Assembly (NCBI GenBank): GCA_021835265.1
Contig: JAKBQK010000582.1
Location: 1 to 8,932 of the forward strand
Length of the DNA stretch: 8,932 nt
From: Thermoplasmata archaeon
GTDB taxonomy: Archaea; Thermoplasmatota; Thermoplasmata; Thermoplasmatales; Thermoplasmataceae
Direction of reading: 5' to 3'
The position numbers were made by a program, and so were the translations under genes. A model generated the notes under the pieces. That model saw only the letters and a program-made list of their open reading frames with translations. It made no database searches and was not told the DNA's origin. This document shows, piece after piece, positions 832 through 8,910 of the stretch; positions within the stretch are counted from its first letter, which is position 1; every line of letters starts with the position of its first letter.

Positions 832-1917
832 TCACAAACCTTCAGAAAGAACCTCTTCCATTTCTACTATTGTCATTAGTAACCCAATACCAACATTAAG
901 AAAATCTTGGCCGAATACATCTTTAAAAGCAACCGCCAGGTCAGTAGCCCCCTTGAAGAAATTCATCAGAACTTCTAATATCTTGCCGGCTGCATTAGTT
1001 CCCCAATCATAGACCTTTTCAACACCGTCTAATGTCTTGTTTCTGAAATCCTTTGACAATATCAATGAAATTGCAAATCCACCTAGAGCGATCAAAAGTA
1101 CATACCATACCAAGTTTGGTGCTTTTTCTATCAAACTTGAAATACCGGCTACCCCAGCAGATGCAAGTGCTACAATCACACCGAATAGCTCTACTATAGC
1201 TTTGTAGATAAGGTACAAAATCCAGTAAATCCCTTTACCGCCAACATAGGCTGCTCCTCCAATCAGCGTTATTGAAAATGCGCCAGACTCAGATGTCACG
1301 ATCATTTGGGCCGCTGCACCTAAGTCAAATCTTTTGATTAAGCCATCCCTTTCAAAGTCCTTATCGCGTGAAATGATACCTCTGACTCCTAATCCTAAGC
1401 CCACCTTTAGGAAGCTTACATCATTCTTGTACTCAGCTTGAAATTTCGCCAATCCTGCATACTCTATCTCAAATTCGGAATCGTCAACTAATTCTATTTT
1501 GGACAATAGTTTTGTCCCCTGTGCCAATGCAAGCTCTAGTGAGCAACCTTTAGGGAGATCTTTTTTGATTTTTGAAAAGACCTCGTCTTCGATTGATTTG
1601 GGAGCATACAACTTCACAAAAACTGATGAAAATATCCGCTCAGTTGAAGAGTATTTCCCGGCACCTACTCTGAAAGCATCCATCATGATAATGTTTGCAT
1701 CAACAACAAATTCTAGCACAGCTAAAGATGGATTGTCAACAGCCAATAACCTTGAGACTATTTGGTCTCTTACAACTTCATATAACTCAGCAGGCAGTTC
1801 CCTTGCAAAACGTTGTATCTTCTTCTTGCTTTCTTCAGGATCTAACACTAACTTTTTCCATTCCTCAGGCAAGTACTCTCTTAAATCTCGAAGCAAGTCA
1901 GAAGATTTTTTATTCAT
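832..1917 (-). CDS. PIN-domain nuclease-like protein with C-terminal membrane segments
   Basis: A 361-residue protein. Residues about 68-195 look like a PIN (VapC-type) RNase domain. The opening strand is FVVDANI with Asp73, followed by an acidic helix PKSIEDEV (Glu110/Glu112), then NDVSFLKVGLGLGV with Asp166, then GIISRDKDF with Asp185 and Asp187. This is the usual spacing of PIN metal-binding acids. An N-terminal helical segment of about 65 residues precedes it. After residue about 215 the protein becomes hydrophobic: about 228-262 holds one or two segments, about 268-288 is a clear one, and about 340-352 is shorter. A membrane-tethered or pore-like C-terminus is therefore likely. VapC toxins are normally about 130 residues and soluble, so this is an unusual architecture, and no antitoxin-like gene sits directly beside it. 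The ATG at 1917 is supported by a TATA-like box about 29 bp upstream. PIN assignment is fairly firm; substrate and role are unknown. Confidence 0.75.
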   Translation of the reverse strand: MNKKSSDLLRDLREYLPEEWKKLVLDPEESKKKIQRFARELPAELYEVVRDQIVSRLLAVDNPSLAVLEFVVDANIIMMDAFRVGAGKYSSTERIFSSVFVKLYAPKSIEDEVFSKIKKDLPKGCSLELALAQGTKLLSKIELVDDSEFEIEYAGLAKFQAEYKNDVSFLKVGLGLGVRGIISRDKDFERDGLIKRFDLGAAAQMIVTSESGAFSITLIGGAAYVGGKGIYWILYLIYKAIVELFGVIVALASAGVAGISSLIEKAPNLVWYVLLIALGGFAISLILSKDFRNKTLDGVEKVYDWGTNAAGKILEVLMNFFKGATDLAVAFKDVFGQDFLNVGIGLLMTIVEMEEVLSEGL

Positions 1918-4186: not shown

Positions 4187-5461
4187 TCATTTATTTCTTA
4201 GTTCACTGTCTACATGCTTTACCCACTTTCCTAATAGTGGCTTCTCAACATTGACATAATCCTTTGCTTCATTCGACAACGCCCTAGAATAAGCGACTTC
4301 CATTTCTTCAGAACTTTCAAGATGCTCTAACACCTTTAAGGTACTAGATATTTCGTCATCATTCACTAGTTCCCCTTTCGTTTTATCAAATGAGAGCACT
4401 TCAAGAACAGCATCCCTCAATCTTCTCTCTTTTATCGAATTCAGGTGCGATATCAACTCCTCATATTTTTCATTATTAGACCTAATTTCTTGAAGTTTTA
4501 ATATCGAAAGCTCACTTTTGAAAAATAATTGGCTTTGTGTTCTAAAGTTGTATGCTTTTTTTTGTTTCATTCCATTTATGATTGGACCTTCGCTATTACC
4601 ACCGTGTGGATACTCGACTGCAATGGCATCATTCATCAGCATAGAATAACCATGAACACCACTCAATTTGACATATGAACTTCTTGGAACATTATGTGTT
4701 AAAAACATAGCGTTAAGGTCTTGGTATCTTTGAAGCTGTTTCAGTGAGTTGTATGATTCACGGGGCGACCTAAAATACAATCCTATAATTCTAACTTGTT
4801 CGGTTGGCACTTCATTTGCCAGTTGTGTAAGCAAATAGTTAAACTTGTTTTCATCACGTGGGTCCAAGAAAAAAACAGGTTCTAAGTCATTTATATCGGC
4901 TTTATTCAAGAACTCTTTGATAAGACTCAAGTGCTGGGCTTTGCCAATACCATAAATATATGGGAACCCTATTAAATCAAATTCACCCTTATTTTCTGGT
5001 GTTTTAGTCAAGTCGATTAGTACTTCATAAAATTTCTTTGCATTTGCAGTTTTCTTTAAGGCAGCAATTCCTGGAGGAATTTTGTTCCTTTGCCCGTCTT
5101 TTGTGGTTTTTTTATCAGATTCTGTTGGTCTTAACAGAAATCCACGCATAGTTGAATGCTGCGACATTCCTGAATATTGTTTGAGAAAATTTGTATTTTC
5201 AATAAACCCGGCATTTGAACCAAGGTTTTTTGTGTCGTTGAAGTCCAATTTTTTAGAAATAAATGCAAATGGTGAATCTAAATCAACTAAATCCCTAATA
5301 TTGGAGTTTGCTGAAAAATCTGATTGTGTGATAGTCCTAAATGGGGAATTAAAGTTGCTCTTTTGTGCAGAAATATTAAGTCCTCTGAATAGGTATGGCA
5401 GCTTTAAATTAGGGTCAATATCTTGTTGAGGAGATTTAACTACAATCTTAATGTGTCTCAT
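4187..5461 (-). CDS. Unknown 424-residue protein with alternating strand/helix core
   Basis: This is the largest product of the minus-strand cassette, and I do not recognise its family. The N-terminal ~130 residues are polar, Asn/Ser/Asp-rich and possibly partly disordered. Residues about 145-288 alternate buried strands and helices: YEVLIDLT, FDLIGFPYIYG, LEPVFFLDPRD, VRIIGLYFRSPRES, NAMFLTHNVPRSS and NDAIAVEYPHGG. Each strand ends in charged or polar residues, the pattern of a (beta/alpha) barrel or Rossmann-like enzyme; D200/R202, R231, H256/R260 and E283/H286 are candidate site residues. From about 315 to 400 it is helical and charged. The frame is open further upstream, but ATG 5461 is preferred. 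GGAG lies seven bases before it, and the upstream extension would overlap the preceding gene by about 98 bp instead of 14. It is the last gene of the operon. A deazaguanine-transferase-like barrel was considered but its motifs are absent. Confidence 0.75.
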   Translation of the reverse strand: MRHIKIVVKSPQQDIDPNLKLPYLFRGLNISAQKSNFNSPFRTITQSDFSANSNIRDLVDLDSPFAFISKKLDFNDTKNLGSNAGFIENTNFLKQYSGMSQHSTMRGFLLRPTESDKKTTKDGQRNKIPPGIAALKKTANAKKFYEVLIDLTKTPENKGEFDLIGFPYIYGIGKAQHLSLIKEFLNKADINDLEPVFFLDPRDENKFNYLLTQLANEVPTEQVRIIGLYFRSPRESYNSLKQLQRYQDLNAMFLTHNVPRSSYVKLSGVHGYSMLMNDAIAVEYPHGGNSEGPIINGMKQKKAYNFRTQSQLFFKSELSILKLQEIRSNNEKYEELISHLNSIKERRLRDAVLEVLSFDKTKGELVNDDEISSTLKVLEHLESSEEMEVAYSRALSNEAKDYVNVEKPLLGKWVKHVDSELRNK

Positions 5462-6011
5462 TACTATTCTCCAAATTCTCTGACCCCAATACTTTTTTCT
5501 TGACTTTTGACCTTTTAGTGTACTCAGGGTATTTTGAATATACAATTTTGAGAATGCCCCTTGTACCTTTTTGGTCTAATTTCTTGCGATATTTAACTAG
5601 TTCATCCTTTTGATATTGAGAGTAATCCTCGGATATCTCCCTGAAAAGCTTTTTTCCTTTATGAGTCAATTGTAGACCTTTTGCAGTTTTCTCAATTATG
5701 CCATCCATTTCTAGAGTTTTGATCTTTTCATTAATTTCTAGGCTGTATGGGCCATAGCTATGCGCAAAGAATAAAACATCTGGTTTACCCTTTATTAAGA
5801 CTGGTTCTTCATTCAGGAACATAAATGCCTGTTTGATAAGCATTATATTCCCTCTTACTGGTTTTTCAGTTAGACCCACTAAAGTGACTAGAAATCTAGC
5901 TAACTTGTCATTTTTCAGGTTATCATCTAACTTCTTTGCATATACATTATATAACTTCGGGTCTAAATGTAAGTGTCCATTTTCATCTTTCAAAACAGGT
6001 ATTCCAAGCAA
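5448..6011 (-). CDS. YwgA/Panacea-like winged-helix protein
   Basis: A 187-residue protein. The central part (about 48-125) resembles the YwgA-type winged-helix domain. 'G.I.LIKQAFMFLNE' is followed by FFAHSYGPYSLEINEKIKTLEMDGIIE, where the H-x-YGPYS motif leads into a helix and a 'DGII' turn. LTHKGKKLFREI follows, as in 'LT..Gk..l'. The end (about 152-171) reads ILKIVYSKYPEYTKRSKVK, matching the usual closing helix and 'YPeYt.kSk.k' tail of that family. A relationship to Panacea/SocA antitoxin domains, which share a GP(V/Y) motif in the same place, is possible. Such proteins are often antitoxin-like or regulatory. The start is TTG 6011, five bases after the preceding stop; the in-frame stop at 6027-6029 limits choice. 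Its stop overlaps the next gene by 14 bp, implying coupled expression. Family resemblance is good, role inferred. Confidence 0.65.
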   Translation of the reverse strand: MLGIPVLKDENGHLHLDPKLYNVYAKKLDDNLKNDKLARFLVTLVGLTEKPVRGNIMLIKQAFMFLNEEPVLIKGKPDVLFFAHSYGPYSLEINEKIKTLEMDGIIEKTAKGLQLTHKGKKLFREISEDYSQYQKDELVKYRKKLDQKGTRGILKIVYSKYPEYTKRSKVKKKVLGSENLENSNETH

Positions 6012-6016
6012 ATCAA

Positions 6017-6583
6017 TTATCTGCGTTCAAATCCCTCCAATCTAAGGTATGGGTGGCCATCATCATAAAAGGCGTGAATCGTTAGTGCATAAATATTCCT
6101 ATTTATTCTGATGTAACGAGAAATCTGGCAAGGCGTATCAACAATCTTTCCAAATTTCTTGCTGATATCGGCCGATATTTTTTCAATATTTCTTCGCAGT
6201 TCACTATACAAATCAACAAAATCTGCCTTGAATGTCCATTTGCGATACTCATATGAGAAGACTTCACTCATAATAATTCTGTAGCCTTTAATAACAATAG
6301 GAGTTTCCAAAGTGAAGATGTTGTTGCATTCATTACATATCCATGCATTGTTCACGTCAAAGGATACACTAGAACCACTTAAGCTGCTATTGGAATTTCC
6401 TATGTTTGCCTCTACTCCTTTCCCAATTTTTAAGTCTTGCTTTTTGAGTTGTTGAGTTTGCAATTCCTGATTTCTCTTGAATTTATTGTGGAATTCTGTG
6501 CGAATAGAACCACAGTTAGGACACAAGACTTCGTTAGCATCACTAAATAGGGAACCATGTGTTCGTCTAGTGTCTTTCTGCAT
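6017..6583 (-). CDS. Split zinc-ribbon protein, unknown function
   Basis: A 188-residue protein and first gene of the minus-strand cassette. Two Cys pairs, CPNC (21-24) and CNEC (83-86), form a zinc ribbon interrupted by about 58 residues. That insert begins with a Lys/Gln-rich helix (about 34-52) and ends in a Ser/Gly/Asn-rich loop. The C-terminal half has a helical section (about 118-145, SELRRNIEKISADISKKF) and a beta hairpin (about 155-186, RYIRINRNIYALTIHAFYDD). The ATG at 6583 is preceded by GAGG six bases upstream, a good ribosome site. Five bases separate its TAA from the start of the next gene. No homologue is recognised by eye. A DNA- or RNA-binding adaptor for the cassette is a reasonable guess. 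Confidence 0.7.
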   Translation of the reverse strand: MQKDTRRTHGSLFSDANEVLCPNCGSIRTEFHNKFKRNQELQTQQLKKQDLKIGKGVEANIGNSNSSLSGSSVSFDVNNAWICNECNNIFTLETPIVIKGYRIIMSEVFSYEYRKWTFKADFVDLYSELRRNIEKISADISKKFGKIVDTPCQISRYIRINRNIYALTIHAFYDDGHPYLRLEGFERR

Positions 6584-6988
6584 TTCTATCCTCTTACATA
6601 CCGAATTTCAAATTAGTTTGTTCTTGTCTGAGGCAGCGAATATTAACAAACCCAATAGATAATATCCTTACTTCCATATAAATTGTAGTCTGGTAAGATT
6701 TGGTTTTTTATATTTATTACATACAACATTAGAAATCCATTAAGAAGGGTAGCTACAAAAAATGAAGTCACACTGATTGAAATGAGTTGTGATAAACTAT
6801 ATTATCACGCCTCTAAAAGGTTATGGTGAGTTTCAGAATACATAGGGTGACGTTATGAAGTGTTGTAGAAGATAATTTCTTAAGCACATATTACGTGGCG
6901 AGGCGCATCAAATAGTAATAATCACGATGCAAACATTCATTTATTTCCGTCATTTAGTCAAATTCAGTACAATTAGGGATGGTATTAC
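6584..6988. other. Divergent control region between cassette and RM pair
   Basis: About 405 bp without a convincing gene. It must hold the promoters of the minus-strand cassette (to the left) and of the restriction gene (to the right). A/T-rich boxes are seen at 6703-6719 (plus strand) and about 6937-6945, the latter suitably placed for a start at 6989 or 7010. The best structural element is the hairpin at 6789-6808. Small frames here are 28 codons or fewer and were not called. No C-protein (controller) gene is present. Confidence 0.45.
6789..6808. repeat. Perfect 7-bp inverted repeat in the control region
   Basis: GTGATAA (6789-6795) and TTATCAC (6802-6808) are exact reverse complements with a 6-nt spacer. 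The symmetric 20-bp element lies between two divergently transcribed units, where an operator for a dimeric regulator would be expected. It could also be an RNA hairpin. Chance is possible in AT-rich DNA, although each arm contains two G/C pairs. Confidence 0.4.
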
Positions 6989-7528
6989 TTGGAAGATGAC
7001 GATGAAGTAATGGTTCAAGATAATGATAGAGAACAGTTAGTTTGTAAATTGTTAAATCTCACTCAAATGCCTGGAAGAGCAGGCCATGATGCCGAGGATG
7101 AAATGGGCAACAAATATGAGTTGAAGAGTACTACAAAAGGTGGATTTGGCACAGGTAGAGATGTTTCACCGGGAATGATTCAAAATTGGAGAGAAAGATA
7201 CTGGGTTTGTGCAAAGGGAAGAAATTTGAGGTCAGGATTCAATATAGAAGAGTTGTACTTCCTTTCACCAAATATGCTTGAAGGTTGGTTTAGCTCTATG
7301 GAGTCAAAATTCTCTAATGACTATGAATTGAGAGAAAAGGCGCTCCGTAATCAAAGGGGCGAATTGTCCCAAGAGGAAATTGAACGTCTCAATTACCTCA
7401 TATCTAGAGGGGCGACCTATAACAATCCCCACATTGGTCTCAGTTATGTTAGAGAGAATGGTATCTCTATCGACCTAGGTGAACCTGCTAAACATTTGAG
7501 AAAATTGGTCAGAGAAAACCCCATTTAA
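6989..7528 (+). CDS. Type II restriction endonuclease, PD-(D/E)xK
   Basis: A 179-residue protein. Near the N-terminus GRAGHDAEDEMGNKYELKS gives Asp34, a ten-residue hairpin, then Glu44-Leu-Lys46. This is the D...ExK active site of PD-(D/E)xK nucleases on two neighbouring strands. GGFGTGRDVSPGMIQNWRERYWVCAKG follows, as in small restriction enzymes where a strand after ExK leads into a helix. The rest is charged and soluble. It is the partner of the convergent methyltransferase gene, whose TAA overlaps its own in a shared TTAA. The enzyme should cut foreign DNA at a site protected in the host; the site cannot be deduced. The start is uncertain: TTG 6989 follows a weak GGATGG, and ATG 7010 would remove seven acidic residues without touching the active site. 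At 179 residues it is short for a restriction enzyme but complete. Confidence 0.75.
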   Translation: MEDDDEVMVQDNDREQLVCKLLNLTQMPGRAGHDAEDEMGNKYELKSTTKGGFGTGRDVSPGMIQNWRERYWVCAKGRNLRSGFNIEELYFLSPNMLEGWFSSMESKFSNDYELREKALRNQRGELSQEEIERLNYLISRGATYNNPHIGLSYVRENGISIDLGEPAKHLRKLVRENPI

Positions 7529-8910
7529 GCAATAAAATCGATAATACTTTCCCTCAATTTTGTTTTATGTCTTGAGCTACTTCTCCACCTAAAAGGAGTG
7601 GTACTTGCATCAGAAAAACCAACGTCTTTCCCAATTTCTGCTAACAAAACATCAGTAGGGACATGAACTCCGTCGATTGCTGAGTCTCCAACCATTACGA
7701 CATAATGTGCGCCATCTTTCAGTAATTTTCTCATTCCTTTCAGATGAAGAGCCATATCTGTGAAATACTCTGCAACTAAACGCGGATGGTCCCAACCCCA
7801 TTGTCTCTTCGACCATTCAATCTCAATCTTCTTGCAATAATCAAGAATGTTGTTAAATGAATTTATATCAGGCAAATTGGCGGGATAGTCCTTATTTGTC
7901 GAAAAGAGATATTTTGTATTAGCTCTGATTAGGTGTTCTTTCAGAGACCTCATTTCCTTCTCACTCTTAATTAAGTCCAGAAAGTATAGTTCAAGACGCG
8001 TGTTTTCAATGTAGTCGACTTCATTCAAGTAGGGTGGAGACGTAATAGCAAGGTCTGCCTTAACTTGGTAAGAGTCGCCTACCCTCCGTGAATCACCAAG
8101 TTTGACAATTTGTTTTGGCCACTCAGAATTATTAAAATGCCTTAAGTCAGAAACCATGGTAGTCAACTTAGTTATGAAGTTCTTATAAACTGGGGCATCA
8201 ACACATACTATTCTACTTTTATTTTTTCTTCTATACGCAATTTTAGGGCCAGCGAGTTGCATATTGCTTACAGGGATTAAAATTGAAGCAAATGCCACTT
8301 TTACGAAGTCTATTGTTTCTTTTGAATAAGAATTCGCTATGTGGTTTTCAATTACAGCTTTGATTCTAACTACTTTTTCAAGAACCCTTGGAGACATCCA
8401 TTTTGACAAATGAGGCATTTCAGGAGGCCCTATTCCTTCCGATTTTATCGAAGATAAGTGGTCATTAATGGCGATAGTGGGAACTTCTTCGTATACAAAA
8501 TTGCCCTCTCTTAATGCACTATCTTTTAATTCCATTCTTACTAGTTCTAATGCGCTCTTTACTTCATTCCTATCCACATTAAAATTTAATTTCACATTAG
8601 CAACCAAATGATGAAAAGGATTAGCTTCTACGCCATATACTCTGATTCCTCCTTGCCCAGCGTAAAGTGCAGTGGTTCCAGTACCAGAAAATGGGTCTAA
8701 TATCAAATCACCTTTTGTTAGGTGGTTCTCTTCGATAGTTTTGGAAACAAAGTCGCTTGAAAAACCAGCAACCGTGGTATACCAATTATGTATTGGAATA
8801 CTGCCTAAATTATGGGCATACAAGTTCCGACTTGTAAATGGAACTATATCATTCTTTTTCTCGTAATGTACAGGATTTCCATTAGGTTCGTCGTTGTCTA
8901 TATTAAACAC
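7525..8910 (-). CDS. DNA methyltransferase (SPPY type) of a type II RM system
   Basis: A 461-residue SAM-dependent DNA amino-methyltransferase. Motif I is LDPFSGTGTTALYAGQGG (Asp72, then FSGTG, the SAM-binding loop), followed by the strand VYGVEANP with acidic Glu95. The catalytic motif IV is TSPPYLNEVDY at about 290-300. SPPY favours N4-cytosine methylation, though some N6-adenine enzymes use it. About 215 residues lie between motif I and motif IV, an alpha-type order with the likely target-recognition region between them. A later GDS (408-410) sits before VHVPTD, and the C-terminal end reads RWRSSSRHKTKLRES. The N-terminus (HNWYTTVAGFSSDFV) matches the usual lead-in to motif I. The GTG at 8910 is the start; a stop at 8926-8928 closes the frame upstream, so the gene is complete. 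Convergent with the restriction gene. The specific site is unknown. Confidence 0.85.
   Translation of the reverse strand: MFNIDNDEPNGNPVHYEKKNDIVPFTSRNLYAHNLGSIPIHNWYTTVAGFSSDFVSKTIEENHLTKGDLILDPFSGTGTTALYAGQGGIRVYGVEANPFHHLVANVKLNFNVDRNEVKSALELVRMELKDSALREGNFVYEEVPTIAINDHLSSIKSEGIGPPEMPHLSKWMSPRVLEKVVRIKAVIENHIANSYSKETIDFVKVAFASILIPVSNMQLAGPKIAYRRKNKSRIVCVDAPVYKNFITKLTTMVSDLRHFNNSEWPKQIVKLGDSRRVGDSYQVKADLAITSPPYLNEVDYIENTRLELYFLDLIKSEKEMRSLKEHLIRANTKYLFSTNKDYPANLPDINSFNNILDYCKKIEIEWSKRQWGWDHPRLVAEYFTDMALHLKGMRKLLKDGAHYVVMVGDSAIDGVHVPTDVLLAEIGKDVGFSDASTTPFRWRSSSRHKTKLRESIIDFIA

Follow-up and report, generated by a model that had tools for sequence, protein, structure and literature searches.

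The question raised by this locus is whether three closely packed genes of a Thermoplasmata archaeon form a defence or toxin-antitoxin system that has not been described before. The genes lie between positions 4187 and 6583 on the minus strand of a window of 8,932 nucleotides (the whole of the stretch analysed, contig JAKBQK010000582.1 of assembly GCA_021835265.1), and an earlier note, made from the letters alone, had proposed them as an adaptor (gene A), a regulator or antitoxin (gene B) and an effector (gene C). In the present study, homology of the B protein to the archaeal SocA/Panacea proteins was found to be well supported by sequence comparison. As for the function of B, an antitoxin is likeliest, closely followed by an ordinary regulator. 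We tentatively favour, at a level which stays short of probable, the reading that A, B and C are one short operon of the Panacea-like toxin-antitoxin or defence kind in which B restrains C. That the trio is a hitherto undescribed defence system is a plausible hypothesis.

The kinship of B was recognised by profile comparison. A profile of the B family (8 sequences) was aligned over 135 columns with a profile of 12 proteins, at an hhalign probability of 98.8 and an expectation value (E) of 6.5e-17. These 12 are winged-helix proteins, mostly archaeal and also actinobacterial, and include the plasmid-borne WP_049938427.1 (locus L017) and WP_050049451.1 (locus L009). Both are named as DUF4065/Panacea homologues in PMC8832971. 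Furthermore, some relatives of B are annotated as 'type II toxin-antitoxin system antitoxin SocA domain-containing' or as DUF4065, and the best relative scored 25.4 bits (2.9e-5) with the Pfam model PF13274 (SocA_Panacea), whose cut-off is 25.7. Plasmid searches which started from B-like proteins of Salinirubellus and Sulfolobus, to which B has pairwise identities of 26% and 32%, returned 15 and 5 records, respectively, and tblastn with B returned 4 plasmid records, all archaeal. Among the defence models of PADLOC, B matched PDC-M19A at E 1e-14 (residues 40-184, 134 of 294 model positions) and WH_III-A at 1.7e-7, followed by weaker matches to MkoB, Specificity_I, DarG (0.003) and LmuC; with DarG, relatives of B reached up to 5.2e-9, in the C-terminal part of the model. 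In Pfam, B had winged-helix matches only, all below their cut-offs. The matches to CggR_N (1.2e-4, 22.1 bits against a cut-off of 30), to functionally unassigned PHROGs (1.1e-7 and 5e-5) and, in a profile search of the PDB, to Sso10a (0.0084) and DarG (0.19) were weak and were set aside. One relative of B, the 315-residue P0010, seemingly holds two B domains in tandem. In addition, the Salinirubellus plasmid NZ_CP104004.1 (L004 and L007) carries two B-like copies with equal scores, and the copy that was read shares one base with a TrmB-type gene.

Genes A and C are conserved and yet very narrowly spread, within the reach of a word-based search of about 5.77 billion proteins at E ≤ 0.001. This search returned three matches for C and ten for B, one of each being the window's own protein, and four for A. 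The two relatives of C have 81-84% identity, and the lengths of the three proteins, including that of the window, are 424, 424 and 422 residues. For A, three relatives are of similar length (189, 188 and 187 residues against 188) with 74-85% identity, and the fourth, P0007, is a 148-residue form with 91% identity which is without the first cysteine pair. B is 80% identical to P0009 and 36-45% identical to eight others. As the relatives keep their lengths and identities (A 74-85%, B 80%, C 81-84%), all three open reading frames are considered to be coding beyond chance. In each of the three families, the relative with the highest score has diverged to a similar degree (85% for A, 80% for B and 84% for C). 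For the top relatives of A (P0004) and C (P0002), the longest contig is given as 3,024 bases in both cases, as would be expected if a single contig carried the trio; this is indirect evidence of linkage. No Pfam or NCBIfam model was matched above its cut-off by A, B or C, and none of the titles and abstracts listed in a literature search describes the trio.

Gene A (6017..6583) encodes 188 residues, gene B (5448..6011) 187 residues and gene C (4187..5461) 424 residues, all on the minus strand. The overlap of B and C is 14 bp (5448-5461), and it is sound because the start of C, which reads MRH, is common to both of its close relatives. The gap of 5 bp between A and B requires that TTG 6011 be the start of B. 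In P0009, the nearest homologue of B, the first residue corresponds to residue 7 of B, and hence the start of B may be TTG 5993 instead, with a gap of 23 bp. Two likely ribosome-binding sites were read directly on the minus strand, GAGG for A (6590..6593) and GGAG for C within the 3' end of B (5469..5472), and both are at ribosome-binding distance from the start. A possible archaeal TATA box of the operon, TTTATA (6677..6682, minus strand, also read directly), lies 99 nt upstream of A. Since the recognised flanking genes are all on the opposite strand, the operon is taken to consist of three genes. Thus, the packing that the earlier note described is upheld in its open reading frames and its overlap, whereas its 5-bp gap is conditional; its argument for co-expression is also supported. 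Its identification of B as Panacea-like is supported by the hhalign result and the relatives near the PF13274 cut-off, and that of a split zinc ribbon in A by the cysteine pairs C21/C24 and C83/C86.

In the favoured Panacea-like reading, B would bind an adjoining protein and keep it inactive, and it may also repress the operon. The likeliest partner would be C, because B directly precedes it with the 14-bp overlap and in the antitoxin-first order. According to PMC8832971, antitoxin-first is the commoner order among Panacea operons, and the trio agrees with the distance and length used there, which are a partner within 100 nt (here an overlap of 14 bp, and a gap of 5 or 23 bp) and no more than three genes. 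A, through its split zinc ribbon, would bind nucleic acid or serve as a sensor of infection. Loss or titration of B, as might occur when a virus infects the cell, would then allow C to act on a cellular target. We infer every step beyond the homology of B, including the toxicity, the target, the role of A and the antiviral function.

The structural models of A and C are both of low confidence. The C-terminal domain of A, at about residues 99-188, was modelled as beta-alpha-beta-beta-beta (model ma82ea82688a5) with a mean predicted local distance difference test (pLDDT) score of 52.6, and this weak model resembles the RelE/ParE toxins. A also matched the PaaD zinc ribbon (1.2e-4, 22.1 bits against 27) and other ribbons, all of which were weak and set aside. 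C is an orphan, and its model (mean pLDDT 43.3) has a barrel-like region at about residues 58-288, then a helical C-terminal part; a TIM-like barrel is possible and weakly supported by this model. In a viral-fold library, C had one match under E 0.001, a phage lysozyme at a template modelling score of 0.22, which is uninformative. C matched DUF7041 (E 4.3e-4; 21.1 bits, where the cut-off is 28) and RsgI_M (0.27) weakly, and these matches were likewise set aside.

The neighbourhoods of B-type genes were compared at 14 places in 13 plasmid records; the records H40, H46 and H52 of the 15 from the Salinirubellus search, a second place each in H38 and H39, and H2 of the tblastn set were left out. 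A TrmB-type or helix-turn-helix gene stands directly upstream of the B-type gene in three of the 14 places, and a convergent DUF6338 gene stands beside it in four (the haloarchaeal plasmids L001, L010, L011 and L013). Three haloarchaeal places have a gene of 162-164 residues and a gene of 418-427 residues downstream, and one further place, in Arthrobacter, has a longer version of this arrangement. Other neighbours are a 180-residue unknown protein (1/14) and a 75-residue unknown protein with a transposase behind it (1/14), and in one place the B-type domain is fused to a type I specificity subunit. Together, the neighbours and the fusion are of four kinds or more, which is the pattern expected of a promiscuous antitoxin domain. 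No second case of A or C was found outside their close relatives, and the full trio was not found in unrelated archaea. Of the joint recurrence that the earlier note had set as a check, only that of the B-type gene was seen, and this gene recurs with other neighbours.

An arrangement which comes close to the trio is a look-alike cassette of a SocA-like gene, a nuclease-like gene and a gene of about 420 residues, seen on plasmids of haloarchaea (L016:2498-4675, L017:2465-4701 and L019:2629-4875) and, with one more gene, of Arthrobacter (L018:2420-5248). The genes RR_RS00620-00610 on pNG400 of Haloarcula marismortui, a cultured organism, are one haloarchaeal example. One of the haloarchaeal cassettes adjoins a SIR2 gene and one adjoins a large DNA methylase gene. 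The small proteins resemble, by eye, what we take to be the motif of PD-(D/E)XK nucleases; one of them had a weak match to NucS_C (0.033), and the Arthrobacter one matched the PADLOC model 'cll' at 7.1e-4. The proteins of about 420 residues carry CxCxxC and then KH in the three haloarchaeal cassettes (418-427 residues), and the three scanned had no Pfam match over cut-off. Like the trio, this cassette combines in one gene run a B-type protein, a second protein of small size and a third of 409-427 residues. In contrast to the trio, it has another gene order and no zinc-ribbon A, and its large protein is not detectably related to C.

A homology of C to these large proteins was suspected from length, neighbourhood and a C-terminal W motif, and it was rejected. 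The hhalign probability between C and the family was 0.1, whereas that of the unrelated control thiL was higher (8.9). The hmmsearch control set held 83 sequences, namely 23 from E. coli and the same 23 reversed, 30 shuffled versions of C, three C proteins and four of the large proteins. With the profile of the four large proteins, 55 of the 83 were reported, and C3, C1 and C2 came at ranks 29, 33 and 34, which is background. A search with the C profile reported 42, from which Hsin, Hmar and Arth were absent; the fourth large protein was not among the first 16 rows, the part checked for it. Since C and these proteins are not detectably related, only an analogous architecture is claimed, and the MAFFT alignment of C with them was not used as evidence because the homology test failed.

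Several results weigh against a Panacea-like cassette in which B restrains C. Window B had no match to PF13274 at E ≤ 1, none of ten scanned relatives of B passed the cut-off of that model, and two of them (L001 and L002) pass the 27-bit cut-off of the PadR regulators, with 29.7 and 27.4 bits. No catalytic domain can be recognised in C, the model of C (mean pLDDT 43.3) had no match reaching E 0.001 in a Foldseek search of the PDB, and no match for C was found in viral contigs, plasmids or phages. Furthermore, at the four DUF6338 places the plasmid gene table, which is incomplete, lists no gene on the same strand within 100 nt, and these places do not look like toxin-antitoxin pairs. The PadR scores also speak for a different explanation, in which the trio is neither toxin-antitoxin nor defence and B would regulate a lineage-specific or mobile-element operon of the barrel-like C and the zinc-ribbon A. 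This explanation agrees with the TrmB-type or helix-turn-helix genes directly before the B-type gene at three places and with the lack of any PADLOC match for A or C at E ≤ 10, and the adjoining restriction-modification pair is in any case a weak argument for defence. On the other hand, A and C are nearly absent from 5.8 billion proteins, unlike housekeeping genes, and among the homologues of B are proteins that annotation or publications assign to the SocA/Panacea antitoxins. We regard such a regulator as possible, and do not think it probable.

Other explanations move the activity to A or give C a defined chemistry. In one, A itself would be the toxin, its zinc ribbon being fused to a putative domain of the RelE/ParE/MqsR fold, with messenger RNA or DNA topology as target, B as the neutralising protein and C as an accessory. 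We consider this unlikely; the A family (five members) had no sequence match at E ≤ 10 to the RelE/ParE family models. PF05016 (ParE_toxin) was found in none of three plasmid records. The word 'zinc' is absent from the part of PMC11980606, on RelE/ParE toxins, that was available. A new archaeal type, with a Panacea-like winged-helix protein that checks a TIM-barrel enzyme and a zinc-ribbon/RelE-like sensor as third member, appears distinctly unlikely. To our knowledge, barrel enzymes are not among the usual toxins of toxin-antitoxin systems. Very improbable, finally, is a role of C in base exchange, as an enzyme of the tRNA-guanine transglycosylase/DpdA type, with the trio modifying DNA or tRNA. 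The barrel-like model of C suits this idea, as does the CxCxxC...KH of the large proteins in the three haloarchaeal cassettes, which resembles what we take to be the transglycosylase zinc site. Against it, C had no match to PF01702 at E ≤ 1, has no cysteine cluster of the CxCxxC type and is not detectably related to the family of the large proteins; E. coli Tgt, moreover, went unreported by hmmsearch with that family and had an hhalign probability of 0.2. Among the best 50 structure matches of C that were listed no transglycosylase was present, which excludes nothing.

The Panacea-like reading was set beside known systems. The trio resembles Panacea (DUF4065/SocA) in its homologous winged-helix protein, its same-strand partner within 100 nt and its limit of three genes, but it differs in that window B is without a Pfam model match, the 424-residue partner is an orphan and a zinc-ribbon gene stands upstream. 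In PMC8832971, 938 of 1,268 putative Panacea partners are without a domain hit, and hence an orphan partner is variation within Panacea and does not make a new type. With PDC-M19, the trio shares the match of B to component A, but neither A nor C matches component B (M19B) at E ≤ 10. From the names of its models, we take PDC-M19 to need both M19A and M19B; these were found in 3/14 and 2/14 control genomes, respectively. With DarTG, the likeness is the match of B and its relatives to the C-terminal part of the DarG model, but B has no macrodomain match (Pfam/NCBIfam at E ≤ 1, and PADLOC) and there is no DarT-like gene among the three. One defining feature of each of these systems was tested and found wanting, and the trio is therefore not to be filed as PanAT, PDC-M19 or DarTG.

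The surroundings of the operon in the window include the restriction-modification pair that the earlier note had placed there. A PvuII-family type II restriction endonuclease is divergent from A (6989..7528, plus strand; PF09225 with 36.7 bits against 25, PADLOC REase_II 1.5e-13), and a type II DNA methyltransferase is convergent with it (7525..8910, minus strand; PF01555 with 51.8 bits against 26.7, PADLOC MTase_II 9.5e-42), the two genes overlapping by 4 bp. PvuII itself was listed first (31.6%) among the plasmid matches of the endonuclease. The plasmid relatives of both enzymes are bacterial among the matches listed, and both phage-record matches of the methyltransferase come from one Haloarcula virus. 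At 2450-2796 on the plus strand lies what is left of an HNH gene, of the recombination endonuclease VII type, in two pieces in different frames; the second fragment (2650-2793) matches PF02945 (1e-7, 32.2 bits against 23.6). A PIN-domain protein (832-1917, minus strand; PF10130 with 22.6 bits against 22.4) has a single plasmid match, to a PIN protein encoded on a plasmid of Methanocaldococcus jannaschii, and its C-terminal half is membrane-spanning as judged by eye. An archaeal origin of the window is indicated by the TATA-like site, the archaeal relatives of B and this PIN match; the bacterial plasmid relatives of the endonuclease and methyltransferase speak against it, and the Haloarcula virus tempers that objection. 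A scan which needs exact short peptides, and is for this reason a weak negative, gave no match in viral contigs for A, B, C, the PIN gene, the methyltransferase, the endonuclease, the first open reading frame or the family of about 420 residues, and none in genome contigs for B and the methyltransferase; B had no match in phages. The pair beside the trio is thus confirmed; C as effector, A as adaptor and a role of the trio in defence are hypothetical.

Archaeal antiviral systems 'remain poorly characterized', as stated in the abstract of PMC12988326. If B restrains C, the Panacea network would gain, in archaea, a class of orphan effectors and a third component with a zinc ribbon. Even if the trio does not serve defence, two almost unknown protein families would be tied to a known winged-helix superfamily.
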